This document shows positions 1 through 3,036 of a stretch of DNA of 64,000 bases, in pieces. Origin of the DNA: Luteolibacter sp. Y139 (GTDB taxonomy: Bacteria > Verrucomicrobiota > Verrucomicrobiia > Verrucomicrobiales > Akkermansiaceae); the NCBI RefSeq assembly GCF_038066715.1, contig NZ_JBBUKT010000011.1, forward strand, positions 124,001 through 188,000. Reading direction: 5' to 3'. The position numbers and the translations under genes are program-made. Below the pieces are notes generated by a model that saw nothing but the letters and a program-made list of their open reading frames with translations, had not been told where the DNA came from and made no database searches. Positions within the stretch are counted from its first letter, which is position 1. Each line of letters opens with the position of its first letter.

Positions 1-1849
1 CGACGATGATGAGGTGCTGGTCGGAAGGCGGCAGCTCCGGCGGTGAGGTCTCGTCAATGGCCTTCGGCTCGATGGAGAAGACCCGGTCGAAGGCGAGGCT
101 CGGCGTGTCGTGCTCGATGAGGTTCGCGTAGTCGCGGACCAGGGTCATCTTGCGGTAGTTGAAGTTCGCGAGGGTCATCGCGCAAAGGTCGAGCTCCCAC
201 GAGTAGGGATTTCCCTGCGATTCCTCCACCAGCGTGAACATCTTCCGGTCCGTGACGGTGCCAGCTCCCGCCATGAAGGGCGTGCGCGGTCGTGGCGGCG
301 CACCGGCGAGTTCGCGCAGCGGCAGCGGTGAAGGCACCACCAGCTTCTGGAACATCTGCAGGCCCAGCGGCCGGAAGTCGGTGCGATCGTAGCTGTAGTC
401 GAGGCTGCCCGCGCGCTTCACCCGCCTTCCCTGGCGGGCCATGCGGCGGCGATACTGATCGAGCCGCTGTTTCGCGCGCTCGTGGACGAGCTGGATCTTC
501 GGCTTGTCCGCGAGTTCGAGCGTGATGCCTGGTTCGGTCGCGTGGATCAGGCGGCAAAGGTTTTCATGGAAGGCGGCGAGGGTCGTCTCTCGCAGGTCGA
601 TGGTTTCCGGGAGATCAAGATCGTAGAGCTGCTTGAGGTGATGGCGCAGCGCCGGGTTTACCTCTGCTTCGCTGCCTTGCGGTTCGAGCGTGTAGTGGTC
701 TTTGACTCCCTTTCGCTTTACCAATTCCACCGGCAGCAGCAGCAAGGGTGAGTGGATTCGCTCGTTGGGTGCTTCCTTGAGATTGTTCCAACGCAGGAAG
801 GCGATGACCAACCGGAGCTGCGAGAAGCCATACTCAGCGCGGCTGCGTCGCGCGTCGCTGATCAGCTTGTCGAGCTGGCCGGGAAGGTATGGGGCTTCCT
901 CGTAACGCAGCCATTTTTGCAAGGGCAAGGCGCGTCCGGAAACGATCTCGGGGGCCAGGCCATCGTGCCAATAGAAGAGCTGGTCGGGCCGGATGTTCCG
1001 GAAGTCGAGCACCAGCGGGACGCTCGCCGTGGTGAGATTGAGCGTGGCCTGCGAGCTTTGGAAATAGAGTAGCCGGTTACGCCGCGAGACCTCGAACAAG
1101 CGGTCGCGCAGATGCGTCTGGATGATCCGCCGCCGTCCGCCCTTCGTCGCCGTTGCGAGGCCCGGCAACGCAAGCACGTCGGCATCCACGGGTTGATCGC
1201 GGTAGCTTTCCAAGCGCCGGATCAGCGAGGGAAGATCTTGTGCGCGCTTGCCGCGATGCAGCTCGGTCATTTCCACGATCAAGCCCGCGATCACCGGATG
1301 CAGCCGCGGCGCGATGGTAAAGAGATTCTTCCGCGAGTTCGCGAAGCGTTCCAAGTCATCGCGGTCCGTGAGATCCAGTCCGCAGGCGAGGCTGGCAAGC
1401 AGCATGCCGAGCGAATGGATGTCGGTGAGCGCGTCGTGATGGCCGATGGCGTGCTCCCAATTCGCGTAGCCTGCTAGAAAGACCGGCTTCGTGATCTCAT
1501 CGTCTGCGGTCCCGACATCGAGGTTGGAGACTTTGGTGAGATAATTCTCGTCCGACTCGCGGCGCATTTCGCCGATCACCTCCACGCCATGGCTGGCGGG
1601 AACCTGTAGCTCATAGACGCGGATCGCGTTTGACGTGGGGGCGATGCCTTCCGTCGATTTCAATCCGAGCGCGCGGTCATCGTGAACGACCAGCGCCGAG
1701 ACTCCGCGCAAGGGCGCCACCTGCGCGGCATCGTGGATGGCCACGACCTCGCGCATCAGCGGTAGCACCGCGGCAAGCACGTCATCGGTCTCGAAGCCGC
1801 CGCGCTCGTGTCCCTGTTCGAGGAAATGGAGGAAGGGATTCTCGGTCAT
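1..1849 (-). CDS. DUF4011-type large helicase with N-terminal kinase-like domain (partial, C-terminus off the window)
   Basis: The reading frame opens at ATG 1849 and stays open to base 1, giving at least 616 residues; the rest lies beyond the left edge. Residues about 20-220 resemble only the C-lobe of a protein kinase: an F-helix-like TDIHSLGMLLASL (about 142-154) is preceded by a degraded catalytic-loop region, with no glycine loop, lysine or HRD motif. Residues about 245 onward match the DUF4011 pattern (RDRLFEVSRRNRLLYF, then NFNYRKMTLVRDY near the end). The last visible residues, LPPSDQHLIIV, are where such proteins normally lead into the Walker A of a superfamily 1 (COG1112/Upf1-like) helicase. 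The ATG overlaps the stop of the upstream metallopeptidase gene (ATGA), so the two are probably co-translated. DUF4011 helicases occur in antiphage loci such as Hhe, and kinase-helicase fusions in type I Mokosh; a defence role here is inference. Confidence 0.75.
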   Translation of the reverse strand, partial: MTENPFLHFLEQGHERGGFETDDVLAAVLPLMREVVAIHDAAQVAPLRGVSALVVHDDRALGLKSTEGIAPTSNAIRVYELQVPASHGVEVIGEMRRESDENYLTKVSNLDVGTADDEITKPVFLAGYANWEHAIGHHDALTDIHSLGMLLASLACGLDLTDRDDLERFANSRKNLFTIAPRLHPVIAGLIVEMTELHRGKRAQDLPSLIRRLESYRDQPVDADVLALPGLATATKGGRRRIIQTHLRDRLFEVSRRNRLLYFQSSQATLNLTTASVPLVLDFRNIRPDQLFYWHDGLAPEIVSGRALPLQKWLRYEEAPYLPGQLDKLISDARRSRAEYGFSQLRLVIAFLRWNNLKEAPNERIHSPLLLLPVELVKRKGVKDHYTLEPQGSEAEVNPALRHHLKQLYDLDLPETIDLRETTLAAFHENLCRLIHATEPGITLELADKPKIQLVHERAKQRLDQYRRRMARQGRRVKRAGSLDYSYDRTDFRPLGLQMFQKLVVPSPLPLRELAGAPPRPRTPFMAGAGTVTDRKMFTLVEESQGNPYSWELDLCAMTLANFNYRKMTLVRDYANLIEHDTPSLAFDRVFSIEPKAIDETSPPELPPSDQHLIIV

Positions 1850-3036
1850 GGTCGGGCGGCGGCGAGCAGTTCGGAGGACTTTTCCTTGAGTCGCTTGAGG
1901 TCCTTCGCTTTCAGCTTCAGTTCCTTGGCGGCGAGCTTTTCGAAGTGGCTCAGGCATTCGAGGTCGCGGGCCCGCTCGATGGCCGCGGCTACCGGCAGTT
2001 CGTCGAGGTCGGGATCGACCGCGCAGAAGTCCAGCATCACGTGGCAAAGGAACTCGCGTCTTGGCTTCGAGAGCGCCTCGAGTTCATCCGCAAGTTCGCG
2101 ATCATTTGTGTCGGCTGGTGTGAAGTCGGGGAAATAGAGCCGAGCGTGCGCGAGCACCGCCTCGCTGCGGAACCACGTGGGACGGAGGTGCTGTTTTAAA
2201 AAGCGCTGAGTGAGTGCCGCGAGTTGGGCCTGTTGGATCAGGTCCATTTCCTCCAACCCTTCGTCTTCGACCAGCATCCGGGCGATGGCTCCTTCGAGGT
2301 CTTCGCTTTCCTCCACCCACAGATGCAGTGCCCGCGCCCTCATGAAGGTCTCGGGATGCGTGAGCTGTTCGGTCTTCGGCTTCGACTTGGAAAAGATTTC
2401 CTCGGCCTGGGTCAGGTAGCTTTTTCCGCTGACCTGTGCGAGGCCGGTGCAGATTTTGACCAGGCTCGCCACGGCGGTTTCGAGGCAACCGGTGACGAGA
2501 TAGGCGCCGCGGTCGGCGAAGAGCTCCGTTGCAAGGGCCCAAAGGCGGGCGCTTTGGCCATGGCTCGGCTCGGCGTGTGGGTGGGCAGCGGATTGGTGGA
2601 GAATCCGGTCGGCCAGATAGAAGGTGCCGTCTTCCATCTGCCAGAGGAGATGGTGAGCCAGCTCGTGGCCGATCACCGCCCGCAACTCGGCAGGAGAGAG
2701 CAGGGTCAAGATGGGCCCGGAGAAGATGAGATGAGCTTCTCCTGGGAGGTAGCAGATGGCAGCGTTCGGAGTGCTCTGCCCTTGGGCCTGATAGGCATAC
2801 ACAGTCACGTGGGATAGTCCCAGAGCCTGTTGGGCGGCGGTGATTTCCGCGAACAGCTCAGGATGGCCTTCCGCATCCATCCGGTAGGTGTCGCGTAGCA
2901 GCGAGAGTCTGACCTCCTCCGCATCCTGCGTGAGGCGCTCGGCATCGGAATGCCACTTCCATACCTCGCTCTCGCGGGTCCTCAGCCAGTCCACCAGGGA
3001 ACGGTGCTGTGGCAGGGGAGTTAGTATCCGGCTCAT
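1846..3036 (-). CDS. M48-like cytosolic zinc metallopeptidase
   Basis: A 396-residue protein with no signal peptide or membrane segment. It carries HELAHH at residues 124-129 (zinc ligands H124 and H128, catalytic E125) and an ExxxD motif at E171-D175 (ELFAD) about 43 residues on, the usual M48 arrangement for the third ligand. The C-terminal half is helical and charged and ends in a lysine-rich probable coiled coil (KLAAKELKLKAKDLKRLKEK). Classic M48 enzymes (HtpX, Ste24, BepA) are membrane or periplasmic, so a cytosolic form is notable. It is the first gene of a two-gene unit and its stop overlaps the start of the DUF4011 helicase by ATGA. The thioredoxin-like gene lies divergently 116 bp away. 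The peptidase fold is well supported. The substrate is unknown; regulation or activation of the partner helicase is speculation. Confidence 0.8.
   Translation of the reverse strand: MSRILTPLPQHRSLVDWLRTRESEVWKWHSDAERLTQDAEEVRLSLLRDTYRMDAEGHPELFAEITAAQQALGLSHVTVYAYQAQGQSTPNAAICYLPGEAHLIFSGPILTLLSPAELRAVIGHELAHHLLWQMEDGTFYLADRILHQSAAHPHAEPSHGQSARLWALATELFADRGAYLVTGCLETAVASLVKICTGLAQVSGKSYLTQAEEIFSKSKPKTEQLTHPETFMRARALHLWVEESEDLEGAIARMLVEDEGLEEMDLIQQAQLAALTQRFLKQHLRPTWFRSEAVLAHARLYFPDFTPADTNDRELADELEALSKPRREFLCHVMLDFCAVDPDLDELPVAAAIERARDLECLSHFEKLAAKELKLKAKDLKRLKEKSSELLAAARP

Follow-up and report, generated by a model that had tools for sequence, protein, structure and literature searches.

We analysed a stretch of 64,000 nucleotides from Luteolibacter sp. 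Y139 (contig NZ_JBBUKT010000011.1, positions 124,001 to 188,000; G000:C11:124001-188000 in contig coordinates), referred to below as the window, at whose left end two overlapping genes encode an M48-type metallopeptidase and a very large DUF4011 helicase. An initial annotation, made from the sequence, had singled out this pair as a candidate undescribed defence unit. The features of the pair, in window coordinates, are as follows.

1846..3036, reverse strand: M48-type (gluzincin) peptidase gene, 396 residues, cytosolic, assigned from the open reading frame (ORF), Pfam and an AlphaFold model.
2653..2667, reverse strand: HELAH zinc-binding and catalytic motif, residues 124-128, with H124, E125 and H128 in 75/75 aligned rows.
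2512..2526, reverse strand: ELFAD, with the presumed third zinc ligand Glu171 and Asp175, both in 75/75 rows.
1846..1849, reverse strand: ATGA overlap of the peptidase stop with the helicase start; a -4 overlap also occurs in 35/72 pairs elsewhere.
1..1849, reverse strand: DUF4011 helicase, N-terminal ~616 residues of 1,821, the remainder lying left of the window, to C11:120384.
1196..1849, reverse strand: degenerate protein-kinase C-lobe, helicase residues 2-218, with no N-lobe and no HRD, by structural match to PknB 1o6y.
635..1102, reverse strand: DUF4011 domain, helicase residues 250-405, over the Pfam cut-off.

Extending the contig leftwards recovers the complete helicase gene (C11:120384-125849), whose Pfam domains all score over their cut-offs: DUF4011, AAA_11, AAA_12 (residues 1341-1553), MTES_1575 (1614-1703) and WGR (1756-1820), with a Walker A motif, GPPGTGKS, at about residue 638. 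The Walker A motif and Vsr-type nuclease fold that the initial annotation had suggested looking for beyond the window are found there, together with the WGR domain, and the description of a cytosolic M48-like peptidase with HELAHH and ExxxD, translationally coupled through ATGA to a very large DUF4011 protein, holds in each of its parts.

The M48 peptidase and the DUF4011 helicase are a two-gene unit found across several bacterial phyla. Among 189 genomes of the order, the peptidase profile matches 15 at E<=1e-3. Thirteen of these reach E<1e-40, and in each the helicase N-terminus lies next downstream of the peptidase, in one genome (G131) at a distance of about 0.9 kb. The kinase-like helicase N-terminus, used as a profile, matches 14 genomes, and the 13 at E<1e-60 are the same 13; DUF4011 in general occurs in 54, which makes the peptidase pairing specific to one branch. 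In a collection of one genome per species (84,980 species) the peptidase profile finds at least 80 loci, and among the 75 listed loci with E<=7e-45 the helicase lies next downstream, on the same strand and within about 0.9 kb, in 72, as anticipated for a pair conserved together in other genomes. Of the three unpaired loci, L058 and L060 are cut off by the end of their contigs and L087 is a genuine exception, with no helicase in the 10 kb examined; L106 is paired, with a broken helicase, and L111 and L112 have a short, weak peptidase match and no helicase. By record titles, the hosts of the pair among the listed loci include Verrucomicrobiota, Planctomycetota, Variovorax, Pseudomonas, Cupriavidus, sphingomonads and Chitinophagaceae, with single records titled Oceanobacillus and Kineosporia. 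Pairwise distances between peptidases and between helicases correlate at r=0.95 over 65 loci, and none of 999 permutations gave a value as high. The two proteins also occur as one: in G154 (L031), of the same genus, a single ORF of 1,933 residues carries M48, DUF4011, helicase and MTES domains, and L108-L110 and G352 are further single-ORF M48-helicase forms. A quick helicase tree, which carries long-branch warnings, including for the placement of the fused forms, groups 65 paired rows in one clade (Shimodaira-Hasegawa-like approximate likelihood ratio test, SH-aLRT, 99), largely sorted by phylum, with the fused forms elsewhere. At the level of the phylum, the peptidase profile hits 47 of 387 genomes at E<=1e-3, five of them at E<1e-90; the intermediate matches are the fusion in G352 (1e-24) and two genomes at 1e-12 to 1e-13, and we take the remaining matches, at E>1e-7, for other HExxH proteins. 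At one locus (L023:5396-5788) a 130-residue ORF without a Pfam match lies between the peptidase and helicase genes; its start, we presume, resembles that of a TIGR02996-type protein.

This degree of association bears on one alternative, namely that an already known system (Hhe, ProA, Mokosh or PDC-S37) is seen here by a different name, with the peptidase as an accidental neighbour. The helicase core does match the profiles of all four, and the nearest helicase profiles, PDC-S37, ProA and Hhe, are those of antiphage or candidate antiphage proteins. However, the scores against NCBIfam Hhe (NF042953; 448.8 bits, cut-off 2000) and ProA (NF058533; 696.2 bits, cut-off 1500) are far under the cut-offs, and the 72/75 pairing among the matches listed, the reciprocal co-occurrence, the fusions and the single clade of the quick tree all speak against an accident; we regard this explanation as highly improbable. 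PDC-S37, a PADLOC phage-defence candidate whose profile comes without a cut-off, scores 688 bits on the window helicase, its best stretch covering profile positions 204-1356 of 1550, and two other DUF4011 helicases of the order reach 1100 and 1196 on the same profile. PDC-S37 and ProA have a DUF4011-type superfamily 1 (SF1) helicase and an MTES-type C-terminus in common with the window helicase, which they match over residues 537-1724 only and 601-1730 only, respectively; what sets the present pair apart is the peptidase partner, the kinase lobe, the WGR domain and the loss of a presumed nuclease glutamate. Hhe is likewise a DUF4011 antiphage helicase, found on Klebsiella plasmids, whereas the present peptidase was on no plasmid searched. 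Mokosh type I consists of MkoA, a helicase that, like this one, has a kinase-like region, with a PLD-type MkoB partner; by eye no PLD partner is recognised beside the window helicase, whose neighbours are the peptidase and ilvC, the kinase region of this helicase is a C-lobe that lacks the catalytic loop, and the MkoA profile scores 123 bits, with its best stretch, 1263-1583, within the helicase. The profiles thus speak against an assignment to Hhe or ProA, whereas PDC-S37 matches over part of its length; plain Mokosh is improbable. Hhe and Mokosh are two outcomes that the initial annotation had named as fatal to its proposal. The PADLOC run that it recommended gives PDC-S37 as a partial match of the helicase and finds no model for the peptidase at E<=1. 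Its further claim, that no described system pairs a DUF4011 helicase with an M48-type peptidase, agrees with the open-licence literature, in which no description of the pair was found in titles and abstract beginnings among the matches listed. One paper reports that a DUF4011 gene is a core flank of a Pseudomonas aeruginosa defence hotspot (PMC10250203); the string "metallo" is absent from it.

The peptidase is recognised by Pfam Peptidase_M48 (PF01435) at 33.6 bits in the window (cut-off 20.3) and at E<=0.1 in 75/75 members of a set that adds to the contig loci the window and five of the 12 other loci of the order; omitted were L035, L046, L058, L060, L100, L106 and L108-L112, which are truncated, broken, fused, weak or of unsuitable length, and one genome (L028 and L104) is counted twice in both the peptidase and the helicase sets. 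In the window the motifs read HELAHH at residues 124-129 and ELFAD at 171-175, and the invariance of H124, E125, H128, E171 and D175 leaves HExxH...E intact throughout the set. The peptidase shows no evident membrane span, its highest 19-residue hydropathy mean being 1.45. Its AlphaFold model (mean predicted local distance difference test score, pLDDT, 94.7) finds M48 peptidases as its top VIA-align matches, mostly over residues 13-254: 3c37 (Z 9.8, root-mean-square deviation, rmsd, 4.5, 170 aligned), ZMPSTE24 (Z 9.3, rmsd 4.3, 189 aligned) and BepA (Z 8.6, rmsd 4.2, 156 aligned). Foldseek alone returned nothing at E<=0.001, the best match being ZMPSTE24 at 0.059. The gluzincin fold and HExxH...E are common to this protein and to M48 and M48-like peptidases (3c37, ZMPSTE24, BepA, HtpX, selecase), from whose structures it is distant (9-19% identity across the aligned part); unlike its M48 relatives it is cytosolic, without a membrane span seen, and has an additional C-terminal helical domain. 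A TerB-like identity for the C-terminal domain, suggested by eye, found no support (hhalign probability 2.9%; Pfam TerB in 1/75, at 0.011). Another M48 protein, with a Pfam TerB domain, is encoded at L032:5773-7089, next to an unrelated gene that gives a borderline match to DUF3604.

Two further matches of the peptidase, a weak Foldseek match to 6mdw, the structure of a DNA-protein crosslink (DPC) repair protease (E 2.0), and weak SprT-like similarity in 53/75 members at E<=0.1 (best 2e-7), are in keeping, as is a soluble HExxH peptidase, with a role in DPC or nucleoprotein repair. A WGR-guided helicase would then unfold adducts at broken or blocked DNA and the peptidase would digest them, as a bacterial analogue of SPRTN or Wss1 equipped with a helicase; we think this rather unlikely. 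The SprT-like score of the window peptidase, 21.3 bits, is below the Pfam cut-off of 25.6, and no LexA-like box was seen in the 200 bases upstream of the peptidase genes, where the best match to CTGT-N8-ACAG has 2-3 mismatches of 8 in 42/42 genes, so that SOS control was discarded as a candidate.

In the helicase, the motor is kept and two other catalytic sites appear to be lost. With helicases shorter than 1600 residues excluded, Walker A is present in 67/67 paired helicases and seven helicase motif patterns in 55 to 67 of 67. The MTES domain is found in the window helicase at 44.1 bits (cut-off 38.2), and the glutamate of its GxECDG motif, which we take to be catalytic from the Vsr/PD-(D/E)xK pattern, is replaced by L, Q, F or M in 64/64 paired helicases (L097, L101 and L103, without the DEASQ anchor, are not counted) and by L in 3/3 fused helicases. 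Of the other DUF4011 helicases of the order, 14 were fetched from 45 matches neither paired nor fused (10 are in the tree), and 12 of these 14 have the glutamate. The YH that follows GxECDG is not kept either (His in its column in 0/64, one column earlier in 25), and the RDRD run is mostly altered; two Asp positions are largely retained. As for the kinase-like N-terminus of the initial annotation, the fold is there and the activity is probably not: in an AlphaFold model of the N-terminal part (625 residues, mean pLDDT 78), residues 2-218 match PknB 1o6y residues 96-278 (Z 14.5, rmsd 3.5, 157 aligned), and all 50 top rows are kinases by title, but the top match comprises the C-lobe only, and in a loop aligned by eye the catalytic-loop Asp position of HRD is L, F or I in 66/66, with Asp143 and Gly148 invariant. 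By sequence alone, Pfam Pkinase is matched in 5/24 members, at best at 0.016. The WGR domain of the window helicase scores 65.6 bits (Pfam cut-off 22), and its motif is found in at least 46/67 helicases, L027 matching Pfam WGR without it; the motif scan did not show WGR in the Variovorax rows and some Verrucomicrobia. The WGR domain and the loss of the nuclease glutamate are both points in favour of DPC repair.

Since the protease and ATPase motifs are intact and the presumed nuclease and kinase sites are lost, we read proteolysis as the output of the system and the helicase as its sensor and motor; the peptidase is probably the effector of the pair. We suggest, at slightly less than an even chance, that the pair is a two-component, ATP-driven nucleic-acid surveillance protease, most likely serving anti-phage or anti-element immunity. 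The large subunit would be the sensor and motor, an SF1 helicase of the DUF4011 kind engaging abnormal nucleic acid, with the WGR domain, where present, probably acting at DNA ends or structured DNA, and with the kinase C-lobe and the MTES/Vsr nuclease fold retained solely for binding or structure. The cutter would be the small subunit, a cytosolic M48-type zinc metallopeptidase held by the large one, probably via the pseudokinase lobe, which would be switched on or fed upon helicase engagement and would cleave proteins on that nucleic acid, or a target in the cell. All of this, the physical complex, the activation, the substrate and the immune role, we infer. That the pseudokinase lobe is the dock for the peptidase is a guess, made because the lobe occurs only with a separate peptidase in the order sampled.

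The sensor-plus-cutter layout, the loss of the presumed nuclease site and the presence or absence of the two-gene block as a whole would also suit an abortive-infection or regulatory protease, in which sensing of phage nucleic acid by the helicase would free the peptidase to cleave a host protein or repressor, not DNA-bound protein. IrrE/ImmA-like logic is a model for such a repressor-cleaving peptidase. Against it stands the lack of a partner gene that recurs across phyla: the neighbour clusters are lineage-specific and contain no such third gene, and we hold this variant to be improbable.

The pair is patchy, a point in favour of the surveillance protease. It is in 18/81 genomes of the Variovorax carrier's genus (one match partial), and in the Pseudomonas carrier's genus 10/249 match, seven intact, one broken and two weak at E~1e-3, which, with 13 strong genomes of 189 in the order, speaks against a housekeeping helicase. 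We compared seven Variovorax-group non-carriers with the carrier G532. In G791 the gene order is dnaE, small OB-like gene, penicillin-binding gene; the aligned ends of the latter two are about 28 bases apart, and in that gap G532 has exactly the two genes of the pair; in G798 the penicillin-binding gene abuts dnaE, and in the other five non-carriers it is not there. The comparison of G791 with G532 indicates that the pair is present or absent as a block, and such patchiness within genera argues against DPC repair. Empty and filled sites of the two-gene unit in close Variovorax-group relatives can be seen in L250 and L256. The broken Pseudomonas-genus copy (G614; L257:5057-11700) has both pair genes disrupted.

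A separate link to immunity appears at three loci, where homologous genes come after the pair, encoding a protein of 622-628 residues, a SWIM protein and a reverse transcriptase (RT), the last in L023 (G131) and L043. These type XIII retron-like genes, all in Verrucomicrobial loci, lie at:

L023:11177-16080
L038:11219-14728
L043:16789-21176

The L038 sequence ends inside the SWIM gene, with an opposite-strand ORF in between. Against PADLOC models, the L043 SWIM protein scores 477 bits (SWIM_XIII) and the L023 RT 432 bits (RT_XIII); in L023 the first retron-like gene begins 3 bases past the stop codon of the helicase, and the gap preceding the RT shows strong folding (z -4.2). In the helicase tree L038 and L043 share one clade, and G131, which is not among the tree rows, was assigned to another family via the titles of its relatives. 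Strong SWIM_XIII matches occur in only 2/387 genomes of the phylum, so that chance hardly accounts for three such loci in a scan of 94 (14 of these were re-cut from the order search, and several come from genomes also represented among the contig loci). The type XIII retron, with its WGR-HEAT protein, SWIM protein and RT, has a WGR domain in common with the window helicase. In two stand-alone retrons (L284, L285) the first protein has WGR, and in one also HEAT repeats; in the pair-linked L023, L038 and L043, WGR was not detected in the first protein, and the adjoining helicase ends in WGR (by Pfam in L023, by alignment or motif in L038 and L043). This suggests, no more, that the helicase may supply the WGR part. 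No retron genes were recognised at the window's own locus.

The helicase relatives, the block-wise presence and the retron linkage favour an immune role over DPC repair, and we make it our first choice, with the chances about evenly balanced. A number of results weigh against that choice. The neighbours of the pair are mostly ordinary genes, not a typical island setting: in a PADLOC scan (E<=1e-10, proteins of 60-900 residues, two per side, seven longer neighbours dropped), 120 neighbours of 34 paired loci matched 57 families, none with more than two proteins, while 68 of the 73 neighbours found at 13 other DUF4011 loci (three per side) matched 231 families, with two proteins at most in each, including E=0 matches to BrxC, PglX and a type IIG enzyme; given the unequal size of the two sets and the weight that a few proteins can have in the counts, only the direction of this comparison should be read. 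Searches of 72,556 plasmids and 50,697 phages found no match to the peptidase (tblastn, E<=1e-5), and none was confirmed in IMG/VR viral contigs by a pattern-based scan; related helicases are on 413 plasmids, none across more than 80% of the window helicase length. The helicase tree broadly follows host phyla, as it would for a long-resident gene. Two of the 14 other DUF4011 helicases (L178, L186) are also without the presumed nuclease glutamate, the loss of which thus extends beyond the peptidase-coupled clade, and the fused G154 form has no kinase-lobe match, which means that the lobe is not required by every peptidase-coupled helicase; we would guess, from this one case, that fusion makes a dock needless. 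In the 387-genome sample the pair is absent from both genomes with strong type XIII retron matches. The ordinary chromosomal sites, the absence from mobile elements and the WGR domain would, for their part, favour DPC or nucleoprotein repair. The proposal of a defence unit gains the retron genes at three loci and has ordinary neighbours and empty plasmid and phage searches to answer; as to whether the pair sits in defence islands, the 34 paired loci scanned lean against it, a few exceptions aside.

Those exceptions are L055, L048, L095 and the retron loci. Of 10 pair neighbours scanned singly with PADLOC, three gave a match, namely the PtuA-like ATPase of L055, the TnsB-like transposase of L076 and the Fic-like protein of L048; in L095, type I restriction-modification genes lie, by eye, within 10 kb of the pair. 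At L055:17977-21131, in Pseudomonas sp. T1-3-2, the PtuA-like ATPase is followed by what by eye is an HNH-like ORF, possibly a Septu-type neighbour, and at L076:5774-8466, in a Pseudomonas, the TnsB-like transposase lies with a TnsC-like ATPase (by eye) near the pair. Islands anchored at tRNA genes were rejected, with only one tRNA in 18 loci. At the window's own locus the gene 3' of the pair, on the same strand, is ilvC, and 5' of it stand a divergent thioredoxin-like gene and then TetR, SDR and RND genes (all named by eye), a side that is identical in G100 and G064, the genus's two other genomes with the two-gene form.

We tentatively propose, as a possibility somewhat less probable than the immune role itself, that these pairs make up an unnamed class of helicase-coupled proteases, in which a defence-type DUF4011 helicase-nuclease has lost its nuclease and acquired a metallopeptidase output and a pseudokinase dock, giving a WGR-guided nucleoprotein protease that in some Verrucomicrobiota would serve a type XIII retron as its WGR-bearing arm. 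A nuclease fold is present in several of the large DUF4011 helicases known from bacterial immunity; the multi-phylum branch described here lacks the presumed nuclease site and has a protease as its fixed partner. If our reading is correct, this branch would represent a switch from DNA cutting to protein cutting in DUF4011 helicases, would serve as a model, in bacteria, of proteolysis triggered by nucleic acids or acting on DNA crosslinks, and would add a protease to retron-linked loci.

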